Shown: one piece after another, positions 19,527-24,281 of the stretch | Position numbering within the stretch: the stretch's first letter is position 1 | Layout: the number at the start of each line of letters is the position of its first letter | Origin: Lichenicoccus roseus | GTDB taxonomy: Bacteria > Pseudomonadota > Alphaproteobacteria > Acetobacterales > Acetobacteraceae | Length of the DNA: 64,000 nucleotides | Direction of reading: 5' to 3' | NCBI RefSeq assembly: GCF_005844085.1 | Contig: NZ_VCDI01000005.1 | Coordinates: 124,001 to 188,000, forward strand | Notes under the pieces: generated by a model | The model's database searches: none | The model's input: the letters and a program-made list of their open reading frames with translations, nothing else | Told to the model about the DNA's origin: nothing | Translations under genes and position numbers: made by a program

Positions 19527-19712
19527 ATGATGCTGGCCCACTGGATGGCGGTTCTTGTCCGCCTCAAGCAGGATCGGCGTGCCGTGACCGCGCTCGAATA
19601 CGCGCTCATCGCCGGCCTCATCGCCCTGGTGATCGTATCGGCGGTCACATCGGTGGGCACCAAGGTGGGAGGCGTGTTCCTCAAGGCCGCCAGCTCGGTC
19701 GCCTCCGCCTGA
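19527..19712 (+). CDS. Flp-family type IVb pilin
   Basis: A 61-residue prepilin with a short positively charged leader (LKQDRRAVTALEY) and one long hydrophobic helix (ALIAGLIALVIVSAVTSVG), which is the Flp/Tad pilin pattern, including the conserved Glu-Tyr pair. It would be cleaved by a prepilin peptidase and assembled by a Tad system, but no tad genes are in this window. TTAGGAG just upstream supports the tandem ATG start at 19527. It is immediately followed by a hairpin that may end its transcript. Confidence 0.88.
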   Translation: MMLAHWMAVLVRLKQDRRAVTALEYALIAGLIALVIVSAVTSVGTKVGGVFLKAASSVASA

Positions 19713-19823: not shown

Positions 19824-22800
19824 ATGGCGACAGGGCATAGGCCTCGGCTCGGCGAAAGACAGATCGATCCGGCTGAACCGGCCCAGGACCGCCCGGCACC
19901 TGGCGGCAAGGCCCCCGGAATGACGGTGATCGGCATCGGCGCCTCGGCCGGTGGACTGGACGCCTGCCGCAAGCTGGTAGCCAGCCTCGGTGACGGGCAC
20001 CAGTTCGCCGCCATCCTGGTCCAGCATCTGGACCCCGCGCACGAGAGCATGATGGTCGAGCTGCTGGCGCCGCACACCGGCATGACGGTGCGGCTCGCGG
20101 CCAGCGGCATGCCGATCGAGCCCGGCACGCTCTACGTCATCCCGCCGGGGACTTATCTTACCGTCGCGAACGGCGCCCTGCGGGTGGCGCAGCCGCAGGC
20201 GCTGCAGAAGGCGAGGCTGCCGTTCGATGTCCTGCTGCTTTCGCTGGCGCAGGAGTTCGGCCGCCGCGCCGCCTGCATCGTGCTGTCCGGTTCCGGCGCC
20301 GACGGCACCATCGGGCTCAAGGCGATCCGCCAGCATGACGGCCTCGTGCTGGTGCAGGATCCCAAGCAGGCCGACTACGACGGCATGCCGCGCAGCGCGA
20401 TCGCCACCGGCCAGGTCGATGCCGTGCTGCCCGTGGAACGCATGGCTGCGGCGCTGCGGATGCCGCACGGCGATGCGGTGTCGGACGATCCCGAACCCGA
20501 GTCCGAGGCAGCCCCGGCGGCCGGGACCGCGGACGCGGGCGCGCTGGCCGGCATCATCGAGACGCTGCGCACGACGACCTCGCACGACTTCAGGATGTAC
20601 AAGCGTGGGACGCTGCTCCGCCGCATCCAGCGCCGCATGGCGATGGCCGCCATCGAGCCGGGCGATATCGAGAATTACAATTCCCTGCTCGATCGCAGCC
20701 GCGAGGAGCGCGACCTGCTTGCACGCGACCTGCTGATCAACGTGACCGGCTTCTTCCGGGATCCCGCGGTGTTCGAGTTCCTGGGCGGCCAGGTACTGCC
20801 CGACATGGTGCGCGCCCATCCGCCGGCGCTGCCGTTGCGCATCTGGGTTGCGGGATGCAGCACCGGCGAGGAGACGTACTCGCTGGCGATCCTGTTCAGC
20901 GAAGCGATGGCGGCAGCCGGGCTCGAGCTGAAGCTGCAGCTGTTCGCCTCCGACGTCGATGCGGACGCGATCGCAACCGCGCGCGAAGGCCTCTATTCAG
21001 ACAGCATCGAGGCCGCGGTTTCGCCGCAGCGGCTCGAAGCCTTCTTTATTCGCGAAGAGCATAGCTACCGGATCAAGCCGGAACTACGCGCGGTCGTGGT
21101 GTTCACCGTGCAGGATCTGCTGGCGGACCCGCCCTTCTCGCGGCTGGATTTCATCTCCTGCCGCAACCTGCTCATCTATCTGGTGCCGGAAGCGCAGGCG
21201 AAGGTGCTGCGGCTGTTCCATTTCGCGCTGCGGCCCGGCGGCCTGCTGCTGCTCGGCAGCTCTGAGAATGCCGGCATGATCAGCGGCCGGTTCGAGCCCA
21301 TCTCGCAGGCGCAACGGATCTATCGCCATATCGGTCGCAGTCCGCCCGGCGAGCTGGTGTCCGCCCTGCGCGGCGGCGATCCCCCCCGGGCGCTTGCGTT
21401 CGGCAGGCCGGGACCGGCGCTGTCACGGCAGGCCGCCTTTGCCGAACTGTGCCGCCAGCTGGTCACCGAGAACTACGCGCCGGCTGCCGTGCTGATCAAC
21501 AACCGCAACGAATGCCTGCATTTCCTCGGGCCCACCGATCACTACCTGCAGGTGGCGCCGGGCCGGCCGACGCACGACCTGCTGGCGATGGCGCGGGTGT
21601 CGATGCGTGGGCGGCTGCGTACCGCCATCCACCAGGCCACCGACCGCAACACCAACGTCGTCGTGCGCGGCGGCAAGGTGACGCGCGACGGGCAGGATTT
21701 CGCCTTCAACATCGCGGTCCGGCCGGTCGAGCAGGATGGCGAGAAGCTGCTGCTGGTCTGCTTCGTCAACGATCCGGCCACCGGCCGCAAACCCGAGCAT
21801 CCGGACCTGGCGACTGTGGCGCCGCGTATCGCCGAACTCGAACTCGAGCTGGAGGCAACCCGCAACGAGTTGCAGACGGCGCTCGAGAGCCTGGAGGCGT
21901 CGAGCGACGAACAGAAGGCGATCAACGACGAGGCGTTGTCGTTCAACGAGGAATACCAGTCCACCAACGAGGAGCTGGTCACTTCGAAGGAGGAGCTGCA
22001 GGCGCTCAACGAGGAGCTGGTGGCGCTCAACGGACAGCTGCAGGACACGCTGGAGAAGCAGCGCACCACGTCGAACGACCTGCAGAACATCCTCTACAGC
22101 ACCGACATGGCGACGCTGTTCCTCGATACCGACCTCAACATCCGGTTCTTCACGCCGGCGACGCGGGCCTTGTTCAAGCTGATCCCCGGCGACGTCGGGC
22201 GTCCGCTCGCCGACCTCACCTCGCTATCGCTGGATGGCGACCTGCTGGCCGATGCCCGGACCATGCTGACCCGGCCGACACCGGTCGAACGCGAGATCGA
22301 GGCGCAGAACGGGACCTGGTACTTGCGGCGCATCCTGCCGTACTACACCCATGACAGCCTGGTCGGCGGCGTGGTGGTGACCTTCGTCGATGTCTCCGAC
22401 CGCAAGCGCGCCAAGCATGCGCTGGAGCTTGCCAAGCAGGTCGCAGAGAACGCCAACGCCGCCAAGTCGCGCTTCCTCACCGCCGTCACCCACGATCTGC
22501 GCCAGCCGCTGCAGACGCTGACCCTGGTCCAGGGCCTGCTGGCGAAGCGCGTGCACGATGCGGCGGCGGGCAAGCTGGTGGCGATGCTGGAGCCCACCAT
22601 CGGCGCGATGTCCGGGATGCTGAACAGCCTGCTGGATATCAACCAGATCGACACCGGAATTGTCCAGCCGGCTGTATCCGATTTTCCGATCGCCGCCCTG
22701 CTCGGCAGTCTCGACGAAGAGTTCCAGTACCACGCCGAGGCCAAGGGACTGACGCTGCGGGTGATCCCGTGCAGCCTGCGGATCCGTTCGGATCGACGCA

Positions 22801-24281
22801 TGCTGGAGCAGATGATCCGCAACCTGATGACCAATGCCATCAAGTATACGCGCCACGGCAAGATCCTGGTTGGTTGCCGCCGCCATGGCGAGACCCTTAG
22901 CATCGAGGTTCGCGATACCGGCATCGGCATACCGGAGGACCAGATCGGGGCCATCTTCGCCGAATATCACCAGGTCGATAATCCGGCGCGAGAGCGTAGC
23001 CGCGGCCTGGGCCTGGGGCTTTCCATCGTCCAGCGCCTCGGCGACCTGCTGGGCCACGGCATACGGGTGCGCTCCACCCCGGGAGCCGGATCGATGTTCT
23101 CGATCGATGTGGCGCTGGCCCCGCCCTCGGCGGATGCGCCCGACGGCGGAACGACGCCGCACCTGCCAGCCGGCGGCGATCCGGCGCCCGACACGGCCGT
23201 GACCGCCGATCCCGCAACCGGCTCGATCCTCATCGTCGAGGACGATCCGGAGCTGCGCCATCTGCTCGAGATGCTGCTCGCGGAGGACGCCCATCGGGTC
23301 ATGAGTGCCGCGGACGGCGTGCTGGCCCTGGACCTGATCAGGCGTGGCAGGATCGACCCGGACCTGGTCCTGGCCGACTACAACCTCCCGAACGGCGTGG
23401 ATGGCCTGACCGTGACGGCACAGTTGCGCGAGCGGCTGCACCGCCGGATCCCGGCCATCATCCTCACCGGCGACATCTCGCCTCGAACCCTGGAGGACAT
23501 CGCGGCGGCCGGCTGCCTGCCGCTCAGCAAGCCGATCAAGGCGCGCGACCTGACCGAGGCGATCGCGCGGATGCTGCGCCAGGCCCCGAATGCGCCCCCT
23601 GCTCCGCAGGCCCCGATGGCAAAACCCGCGGTCGTGGCCAGGCAAGCGCAGGCGGATCCGGTATTCATCATCGATGACGACCGCAACGTGAGGGATGCGA
23701 TCGTGCGCGTGCTGAGCACGCAGGGGTATGCGGTCGCCGCCTACGCGACCAGCGAAGCGTTCCTCGACGAGTACAGGGCCGGCACCGGCGCCTGTCTGCT
23801 GGTGGATGCCGTCCTGCCCGGCATGCAGGGGCTCGACCTGCTGCACCAGCTGGCGCGAGACGGAAACCTGATGCCCTCGATCATGATCACCGGCAACGGC
23901 GACGTGCCGATGGCTGTCGAGGCCATGAAGGCTGGCGCCAGCGACTTCATCGAGAAGCCGATCAGCGAGGCGGAGCTGCTCGCCAGCGTGGCGCGCGCAC
24001 TGGAGAACTCGCAGGATGACGGCAAGCTGCGCGGCTGGCAGCGCGACGCTGCCAGCCTGCTGGCCAGCCTGACGCGCCGCGAACGCGAGGTGATGGAGAT
24101 GGTGCTTGCCGGTCACCCGAGCAAGAATATCGCCGCCGATCTCGCCATCAGCCAGCGCACTGTGGAGAACCATCGCGCGTCCATCATGAAGAAGACCTCG
24201 TCGAAATCGGTGCCGGCACTGGCGCGGCTGGCGATGACGGCCGGTATCCGCACCCGGACCGGTCAACCCGCCTTGCGTTGA
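19824..24281 (+). CDS. CheB-CheR-PAS-histidine kinase-REC-REC-LuxR fusion
   Basis: A 1485-residue soluble signalling protein. CheB-type methylesterase: catalytic S41, H68 and D160. CheR-type methyltransferase: NVTGFFRD and the SAM loop AGCSTGEE near residue 343. A long coiled coil spans about 669-758, then a PAS domain (to about 860). Histidine kinase: phospho-acceptor H890 in THDLRQPLQTL, N-box N1004, G-box DTGIG near 1032 and GLGLGLSIV. Receiver 1 has acceptor D1185; receiver 2, of FixJ type, has D1328. A LuxR-type helix-turn-helix spans about 1416-1476 (LTRREREVMEMV). All catalytic residues are present, so one chain could sense, phosphorylate itself and bind DNA. No chemoreceptor gene is nearby. 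The 3' end overlaps the AsmA gene by 19 bases. Confidence 0.93.
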   Translation: MATGHRPRLGERQIDPAEPAQDRPAPGGKAPGMTVIGIGASAGGLDACRKLVASLGDGHQFAAILVQHLDPAHESMMVELLAPHTGMTVRLAASGMPIEPGTLYVIPPGTYLTVANGALRVAQPQALQKARLPFDVLLLSLAQEFGRRAACIVLSGSGADGTIGLKAIRQHDGLVLVQDPKQADYDGMPRSAIATGQVDAVLPVERMAAALRMPHGDAVSDDPEPESEAAPAAGTADAGALAGIIETLRTTTSHDFRMYKRGTLLRRIQRRMAMAAIEPGDIENYNSLLDRSREERDLLARDLLINVTGFFRDPAVFEFLGGQVLPDMVRAHPPALPLRIWVAGCSTGEETYSLAILFSEAMAAAGLELKLQLFASDVDADAIATAREGLYSDSIEAAVSPQRLEAFFIREEHSYRIKPELRAVVVFTVQDLLADPPFSRLDFISCRNLLIYLVPEAQAKVLRLFHFALRPGGLLLLGSSENAGMISGRFEPISQAQRIYRHIGRSPPGELVSALRGGDPPRALAFGRPGPALSRQAAFAELCRQLVTENYAPAAVLINNRNECLHFLGPTDHYLQVAPGRPTHDLLAMARVSMRGRLRTAIHQATDRNTNVVVRGGKVTRDGQDFAFNIAVRPVEQDGEKLLLVCFVNDPATGRKPEHPDLATVAPRIAELELELEATRNELQTALESLEASSDEQKAINDEALSFNEEYQSTNEELVTSKEELQALNEELVALNGQLQDTLEKQRTTSNDLQNILYSTDMATLFLDTDLNIRFFTPATRALFKLIPGDVGRPLADLTSLSLDGDLLADARTMLTRPTPVEREIEAQNGTWYLRRILPYYTHDSLVGGVVVTFVDVSDRKRAKHALELAKQVAENANAAKSRFLTAVTHDLRQPLQTLTLVQGLLAKRVHDAAAGKLVAMLEPTIGAMSGMLNSLLDINQIDTGIVQPAVSDFPIAALLGSLDEEFQYHAEAKGLTLRVIPCSLRIRSDRRMLEQMIRNLMTNAIKYTRHGKILVGCRRHGETLSIEVRDTGIGIPEDQIGAIFAEYHQVDNPARERSRGLGLGLSIVQRLGDLLGHGIRVRSTPGAGSMFSIDVALAPPSADAPDGGTTPHLPAGGDPAPDTAVTADPATGSILIVEDDPELRHLLEMLLAEDAHRVMSAADGVLALDLIRRGRIDPDLVLADYNLPNGVDGLTVTAQLRERLHRRIPAIILTGDISPRTLEDIAAAGCLPLSKPIKARDLTEAIARMLRQAPNAPPAPQAPMAKPAVVARQAQADPVFIIDDDRNVRDAIVRVLSTQGYAVAAYATSEAFLDEYRAGTGACLLVDAVLPGMQGLDLLHQLARDGNLMPSIMITGNGDVPMAVEAMKAGASDFIEKPISEAELLASVARALENSQDDGKLRGWQRDAASLLASLTRREREVMEMVLAGHPSKNIAADLAISQRTVENHRASIMKKTSSKSVPALARLAMTAGIRTRTGQPALR

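Follow-up and report, generated by a model that had tools for sequence, protein, structure and literature searches.

A CheB-CheR Hybrid Kinase with Its Own FixJ-Type Output in Lichenicoccus roseus: Candidate In-Chain Methylation and a Predicted Regulon

One Chain from Methylation Enzymes to a DNA-Binding Domain

The window analyzed here is a 64,000-nt stretch of the Lichenicoccus roseus genome (contig NZ_VCDI01000005.1, positions 124,001 to 188,000), with positions counted from its first letter. It carries an open reading frame (ORF) for a protein of 1485 aa, which is unbroken from its ATG to the stop codon and has neither internal stops nor frameshifts. Domains were called by Pfam and NCBIfam profile searches, with bit scores compared to the family cut-offs (Table 1). 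As judged from these domains, the protein is a soluble single chain in which the enzymes that normally tune chemotaxis receptors are combined with a sensor kinase and with a gene switch of the FixJ type. The domain order and the FixJ-like ending had been correctly recognized in the original prediction, which overlooked one additional PAS-like fold.

The CheB domain is not preceded by a receiver and thus differs from classical CheB, which has an N-terminal controlling receiver. Its Ser-His-Asp triad, as required for a CheB methylesterase, is present. The 164-bit match to CheR covers aa 306-495, and both the predicted S-adenosyl-methionine-binding motif and the CRN motif are found. CheR_N scores 25.5 bits, slightly below its cut-off of 27. 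HisKA is also slightly below the cut-off (23.1 bits, cut-off 26.9), its H-box (HDLRQPL, with H890) being nevertheless plain. All residues expected of a hybrid histidine kinase (H890, N1004, D1185 and D1328) reside in one chain, and the two receivers score 151 bits in total. The closest solved structure for the C-terminal 200 residues is that of full-length FixJ (E 2e-40). Receiver 2 and the helix-turn-helix (HTH) score 233 bits against PRK09390, below the cut-off of 255, so that this part is FixJ-like rather than a FixJ equivalog.

An AlphaFold2 model of residues 505-870 (six-sequence alignment, mean pLDDT 78.5, pTM 0.36) predicts two PAS-like folds (~533-649 and 763-856), linked by one 98-residue helix (662-759). 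The first fold has no match in Pfam and no sequence match in the PDB. Foldseek matches span both PAS units of tandem-PAS proteins, FixL and PpsR included; whole-model TM-scores are low (0.2-0.3), as the relative placement of the folds is not fixed by the model.

Table 1. Features of the 1485-aa protein and their positions in the window.
Feature	Position	Strand	Evidence
Whole ORF, 1485 aa: CheB-CheR-PAS-coil-PAS-HisKA-HATPase-REC-REC-HTH(FixJ)	19824..24281	+	ORF and profile searches
CheB methylesterase domain, aa 36-211 (S41, H68, D160)	19929..20456	+	Pfam PF01339, 175 bits; triad kept in 31-32 of 33
CheR methyltransferase, aa 241-500 (GCSTGEE 344-350, ASDVD 375-379, CRN 446-448)	20544..21323	+	Pfam PF01739, 164 bits; motifs kept
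PAS-like fold, aa ~533-649	21420..21770	+	AlphaFold2 topology and Foldseek match; invisible to Pfam
Single long helix/coiled coil, aa ~662-759	21807..22100	+	AlphaFold2, core pLDDT >90
Four heptad-spaced Glu-Glu pairs (E709/710, 716/717, 723/724, 730/731), candidate methylation sites	21948..22016	+	Conservation; consensus from PMC1079850, PMC6829392
PAS domain, aa 753-857	22080..22394	+	Pfam PAS_10, 90 bits
HisKA, aa 880-945, phospho-acceptor H890	22461..22658	+	Pfam, residue conservation
HATPase_c, aa 990-1097 (N1004, G1 and G2 boxes)	22791..23114	+	Pfam, residue conservation
Receiver 1, aa 1134-1252, D1185	23223..23579	+	Pfam, residue conservation
Receiver 2, aa 1280-1389, D1328	23661..23990	+	Pfam, residue conservation; FixJ-like from here to protein end
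LuxR/FixJ HTH, aa 1415-1470	24066..24233	+	Pfam GerE, 60 bits; best-conserved segment, 3.43 bits per column

Distribution and Conservation

Of 35 genomes sampled from the same family, 12 encode a homolog with this architecture (41-62% identical). Ten of the twelve are full-length, one of these being decayed. Among the alphaproteobacteria, 15 of 385 species beyond that of the window have a homolog, and a few of these are truncated or frameshifted. Plasmid-borne homologs occur in Phyllobacterium, Methylocystis, Sphingomonas, Acidiphilium, Agrobacterium and the betaproteobacterium Caballeronia. Phage searches returned only partial matches. The front module (CheB-CheR-coil-PAS) is much more common, being present with varied tails in 38 of 150 proteobacterial genomes. 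No characterized member of the architecture was found in the open literature, which holds only passing mentions of CheB-CheR fusions or chimeras (PMC2890560, PMC11974857, PMC8396549). The protein thus represents a widespread, apparently unstudied variant of CheB-CheR hybrid kinases that has its own FixJ-type output. The architecture is less novel than had been implied at the outset, given how widespread it proved in the architecture searches, even if no paper describes a member.

Conservation was evaluated for 33 full-length proteins (41-62% identity). The catalytic residues of CheB, CheR, the kinase and both receivers, as well as the recognition helix, are nearly invariant. The residues that had been picked out as catalytic from the sequence alone (S41, H68, D160, H890, N1004, D1185 and D1328) are at their assigned positions and are kept in 31-33 of the 33 proteins, far beyond chance. 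The HTH ranks first in information per column (Table 1), followed by the coil (3.33 bits), HisKA and HATPase (3.23), PAS (3.19), CheR (3.17) and CheB (3.02); linkers have 1.1-2.1 bits. It is unusual that a coil is as conserved as catalytic domains.

Two relatives deviate from this pattern. One full-length homolog (L021, at L125:7875-12344) has lost the active sites of CheB, CheR and the kinase while its frame is open and its receiver-HTH part is kept; it is possibly a kinase-dead paralog. A 644-residue relative (L109/L127; genome G010, contig C81) retains HisKA and a 58% identical receiver-HTH part and is devoid of CheB, CheR, the Glu-Glu heptads, the second PAS and HATPase.

The Coil Between the PAS Folds

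The coil of the window protein contains the heptads NEEYQST NEELVTS KEELQAL NEELVAL and thus four Glu-Glu (EE) pairs at an exact spacing of 7 residues. Methylation sites of chemoreceptors follow the consensus [ASTG][ASTG]xx[EQ][EQ]xx[ASTG][ASTG], also at heptad spacing (PMC1079850, PMC6829392). The spacing and the downstream half of this consensus fit the coil, the upstream half only partly. In 124 coils from proteins with CheR, EExx[ASTG][ASTG] occurs 2.85 times per coil, compared to 0.20 times in shuffled coils. Coils differ in length by whole heptads (7 or 14 residues).

From 139 distinct coil-PAS proteins, the 124 with an intact CheR were compared to 8 that are CheR-less or CheR-dead and align gap-free. 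CheR integrity was judged by hidden Markov model score and motifs, as a strict regular expression had labelled several high-scoring CheR domains degenerate. EE pairs are kept at 489 of 496 positions (98.6%) when CheR is intact but only at 4 of 32 (12.5%) when it is lost or dead. The drop is smaller for hydrophobic heptad positions (from 605 of 620 to 27 of 40). Individual proteins illustrate this. CheR is absent and CheB present in L167/L175, where the pairs read RE, VE, DE and EE; both domains are absent in L115/L180, where they read AD, EA, AE and EE. In three other CheR-less proteins (L070, L184, L179), the coil is shortened or missing. In L067, the CheB triad is gone, yet CheR and the EE pairs are retained. 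The EE coil is also retained in two CheR-PAS-coil-PAS proteins that have no CheB in the chain (L186 and L187). The gene for L186 adjoins two cheB genes, and in L187 the coil follows an extra PAS.

Some candidates were discarded. Apparent cases of EE heptads without CheR all have CheB and CheR encoded just upstream (L055, with one stop codon; L183 and L066/L140, with a frameshift; L202, with a separate upstream ORF). L021 was dropped as a single proof for joint loss of CheR and EE pairs because its kinase His is also lost.

Judged by this comparison, conservation of the coil surface hinges on CheR. The simplest reading takes this surface as the methylation substrate; the data are suggestive and do not amount to proof. 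Self-modification of the coiled coil had been raised in the original prediction, and the idea gains comparative, not biochemical, support from EE pairs that track an intact CheR.

A FixJ-Like Box and Its Predicted Regulon

Regions upstream of the homologs share 8-mers of CGGAAACTACTCAG (8 of 31 regions), always in the same orientation, and 16 of the 31 reach a position weight matrix score of at least 17. The box was derived from plain 8-mers; palindromic 5-mer dyads in the same regions did not exceed shuffles. A total of 58 genomes was searched with CGGAAWMTACTCA, the pattern read backwards serving as control. There are 99 exact sites in the 28 genomes that carry the gene versus 6 in the 30 that do not (rank test, p 2.5e-6). 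The reversed pattern has 9 sites in the 28 gene-bearing genomes. Two of the six sites in gene-less genomes lie in a single genome that codes for a related CheB-CheR kinase. The box-rich genomes G361 (24 sites) and G014 (19 sites) have their sites spread across many contigs.

With 106 collected sites, the box widens to ~20 bp (YAGnnTCGGAAACTACTCAg). Sites avoid coding DNA: called genes make up 83% of the sequence but contain 21 of 77 sites (p 2e-27). On plasmids, 0 of 13 sites are within annotated genes. The reverse complement of the box (CTGAGTAGTTTCCG) contains GTAGTTTCC, which agrees in 9 of 10 letters with GTAGTTTCCC, a site class obtained for FixJ by systematic evolution of ligands by exponential enrichment (SELEX) (PMC4999443). 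This match played no part in the discovery of the box. That a FixJ-like box accompanies the gene from genome to genome supports the route proposed from the sequence, in which one chain leads from sensing to the control of genes; that the protein itself binds the box is what we infer.

The genes that adjoin boxes or lie in the vicinity of the gene code for an accessory F-type ATP synthase, phosphoketolase, class I fructose-bisphosphate aldolase, universal stress protein, a GH65 phosphorylase-type enzyme, PRC-barrel, DnaJ, zinc alcohol dehydrogenase, a Dps-like protein, slipin, CsbD and P-type ATPases. This suggests a regulon for stress, fermentation and energy maintenance. As for the signal, the gene content prompts the guess of low oxygen. 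By analogy, the set resembles low-oxygen and energy-stress islands such as the lxa locus of Burkholderia cenocepacia (PMC6127331). Similar gene content (universal stress proteins, alcohol dehydrogenases, sugar metabolism) is found around the boxes and the plasmid-borne homologs, but a CheB-CheR-FixJ regulator is not mentioned in that report.

When up to two mismatches are allowed, the genome from which the window is taken has 14 box sites versus 3 for the reversed control. Seven of the 14 fall within 34 kb of contig C1, an island that carries ATP synthase, phosphoketolase, aldolase and stress genes.

Gene Neighborhood

There are no chemotaxis genes near the ORF. This had been noted already and was borne out; the other CheB/CheR homologs of the genome are encoded on contigs C1 and C20. 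Neighbors in the window code for Flp pilin, a DUF1192 protein, glycosyltransferases and flippases, AsmA and a CBS protein, none with a functional link. The Flp/Fap pilin gene (19527-19712, + strand) is a lone one, has a good Shine-Dalgarno (SD) sequence and ends 111 bp before the ORF. Among the neighboring genes that were looked at, it is the only one related to Flp pili (tad).

No neighbor is conserved universally among the homologs. The most common one, absent from the window, is a divergent gene for a lone receiver, counted at 10 loci; such a gene lies next to the homolog in L049, L050, L052, L116, L118, L121, L122, L129, L130, L134 and L140. It is possibly a phosphate sink or an extra output.

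Comparison to Known Systems

The front module is common to the CheB-CheR-PAS hybrids, which are annotated as "chemotaxis protein CheB" and often have HWE-type kinase tails. Most of these lack the HisKA-REC-REC-FixJ tail, so that the subfamily found in the window adds its own transcription factor. FixL-FixJ likewise combines a PAS-kinase with a FixJ receiver-HTH, and the box is similar to the FixJ SELEX site. The window protein, however, is one polypeptide with an extra receiver, CheB and CheR modules and PAS_10 instead of the heme PAS of FixL. Its kinase-receiver core is closest to the NahK/ErcS' hybrid kinases (NF041832), scoring 338 bits and thus below the cut-off of 400 for membership; the N-terminus is different, and the FixJ output is added. 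The heptad-spaced EE pairs partly resemble the methylation sites of methyl-accepting chemotaxis proteins. Unlike those proteins, the window protein has neither their signaling tip nor CheA/CheW coupling, and the enzymes are fused to their putative substrate.

Proposed Mechanism and Alternatives

Our joint best explanation, to which we give about even chances, is a self-contained soluble sensor and transcription factor in which the coil Glu pairs are methylated by the protein's own CheR and CheB while the FixJ-type HTH reads the box. Both PAS folds, together with the long helix, would receive a cytoplasmic signal and set the kinase. Phosphate would pass from H890 to D1185 and/or D1328. Phosphorylation of receiver 2 would free the HTH to bind boxes of the YAGnnTCGGAAACTACTCAg type, thereby switching genes for stress, fermentation and energy maintenance and, in many species, also its own gene. 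CheR would add and CheB remove methyl groups on the heptad-spaced Glu pairs, either in cis or between the chains of a dimer or higher oligomer, and coil methylation would set kinase gain as in chemoreceptors. The comparative signal is good for the gene-control half and suggestive for self-methylation. More tentatively, we propose a methylation memory within a transcription factor: reversible methylation of the inter-PAS EE heptads by the in-chain enzymes would let the regulator adapt to a sustained signal, its output being the FixJ-box stress and energy regulon.

Several observations speak against this explanation. The full consensus of chemoreceptors is matched by the EE heptads only in part, with a usually large residue at position -4 where the consensus has a small one. 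The loss upon CheR decay is not Glu-specific, as conserved coil Asn positions decay too (from 471 of 496 to 13 of 32). Well-supported tree branches provide only 4 independent pairs (3.7 in the expected direction, 0 against, p 0.125). With regard to the box, about a quarter of the 99 sites lie close to the gene and contributed in part to the derivation of the pattern. Three genomes contribute 56 of the 99, so that the difference is summarized fairly by the rank test. The genome of the window itself has no box ahead of the gene or within its reach. Moreover, the C1 island codes for a receiver-less LuxR protein (C1:1110301-1111168; L342:10401-11267) with an identical recognition helix (ISQRTVENHRA) and an HTH that is 60% identical to that of the window protein. 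The boxes in this genome may be used by the window protein, by the island LuxR protein or by both.

The Asn positions bear on an alternative that we consider possible, if on the unlikely side: the kinase and FixJ parts function as proposed, the coil is conserved for signal transmission and dimerization, and CheB and CheR modify another protein, e.g., chemoreceptors. These may be present, given the other CheB and CheR genes of the genome. However, at the loci examined, the gene is outside of che clusters; coils without CheR lose their EE pairs yet retain most hydrophobic heptad positions; the EE coil accompanies CheR even where CheB is encoded apart (L186, L187); and a CheB-CheR chimera from Phaeobacter is not co-regulated with chemotaxis genes (PMC11974857). 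The island LuxR protein, with its shared recognition helix, and the resemblance of the box to the site of FixJ itself would fit with a different FixJ-type regulator from the same accessory gene pool as owner of the box, linked to the gene only indirectly. We regard this as unlikely, since about half of the homologs have the box upstream, in a fixed orientation, and relatives that lack the gene rarely contain it.

It is improbable that CheB and CheR are no longer enzymes and act as docking or S-adenosyl-methionine-sensing modules. The lack of chemotaxis context would be consistent with this, as would L067, where the remainder is kept without the CheB triad, but 31-33 of the 33 proteins, which are 41-62% identical, retain the triad and the CheR motifs. 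Least credible is that the receiver-HTH part acts alone, via an internal start or upon proteolytic release. The ATG at 23616 (M1265), preceded by a weak SD-like AGG, is the only candidate start in the linker, and this Met is not conserved among the 33 homologs. Separate expression of the C-terminal part, named in the original prediction as what would overturn it, is therefore unsupported.

Implications

CheB-CheR fusions are common, and the question of their target has been open. A specific substrate within the chain, with at least four EE heptads, is suggested by the comparative result. The box provides the first predicted regulon for the family. If the proposal is true, reversible receptor methylation would extend beyond chemoreceptors, as an adaptation device in gene regulation.

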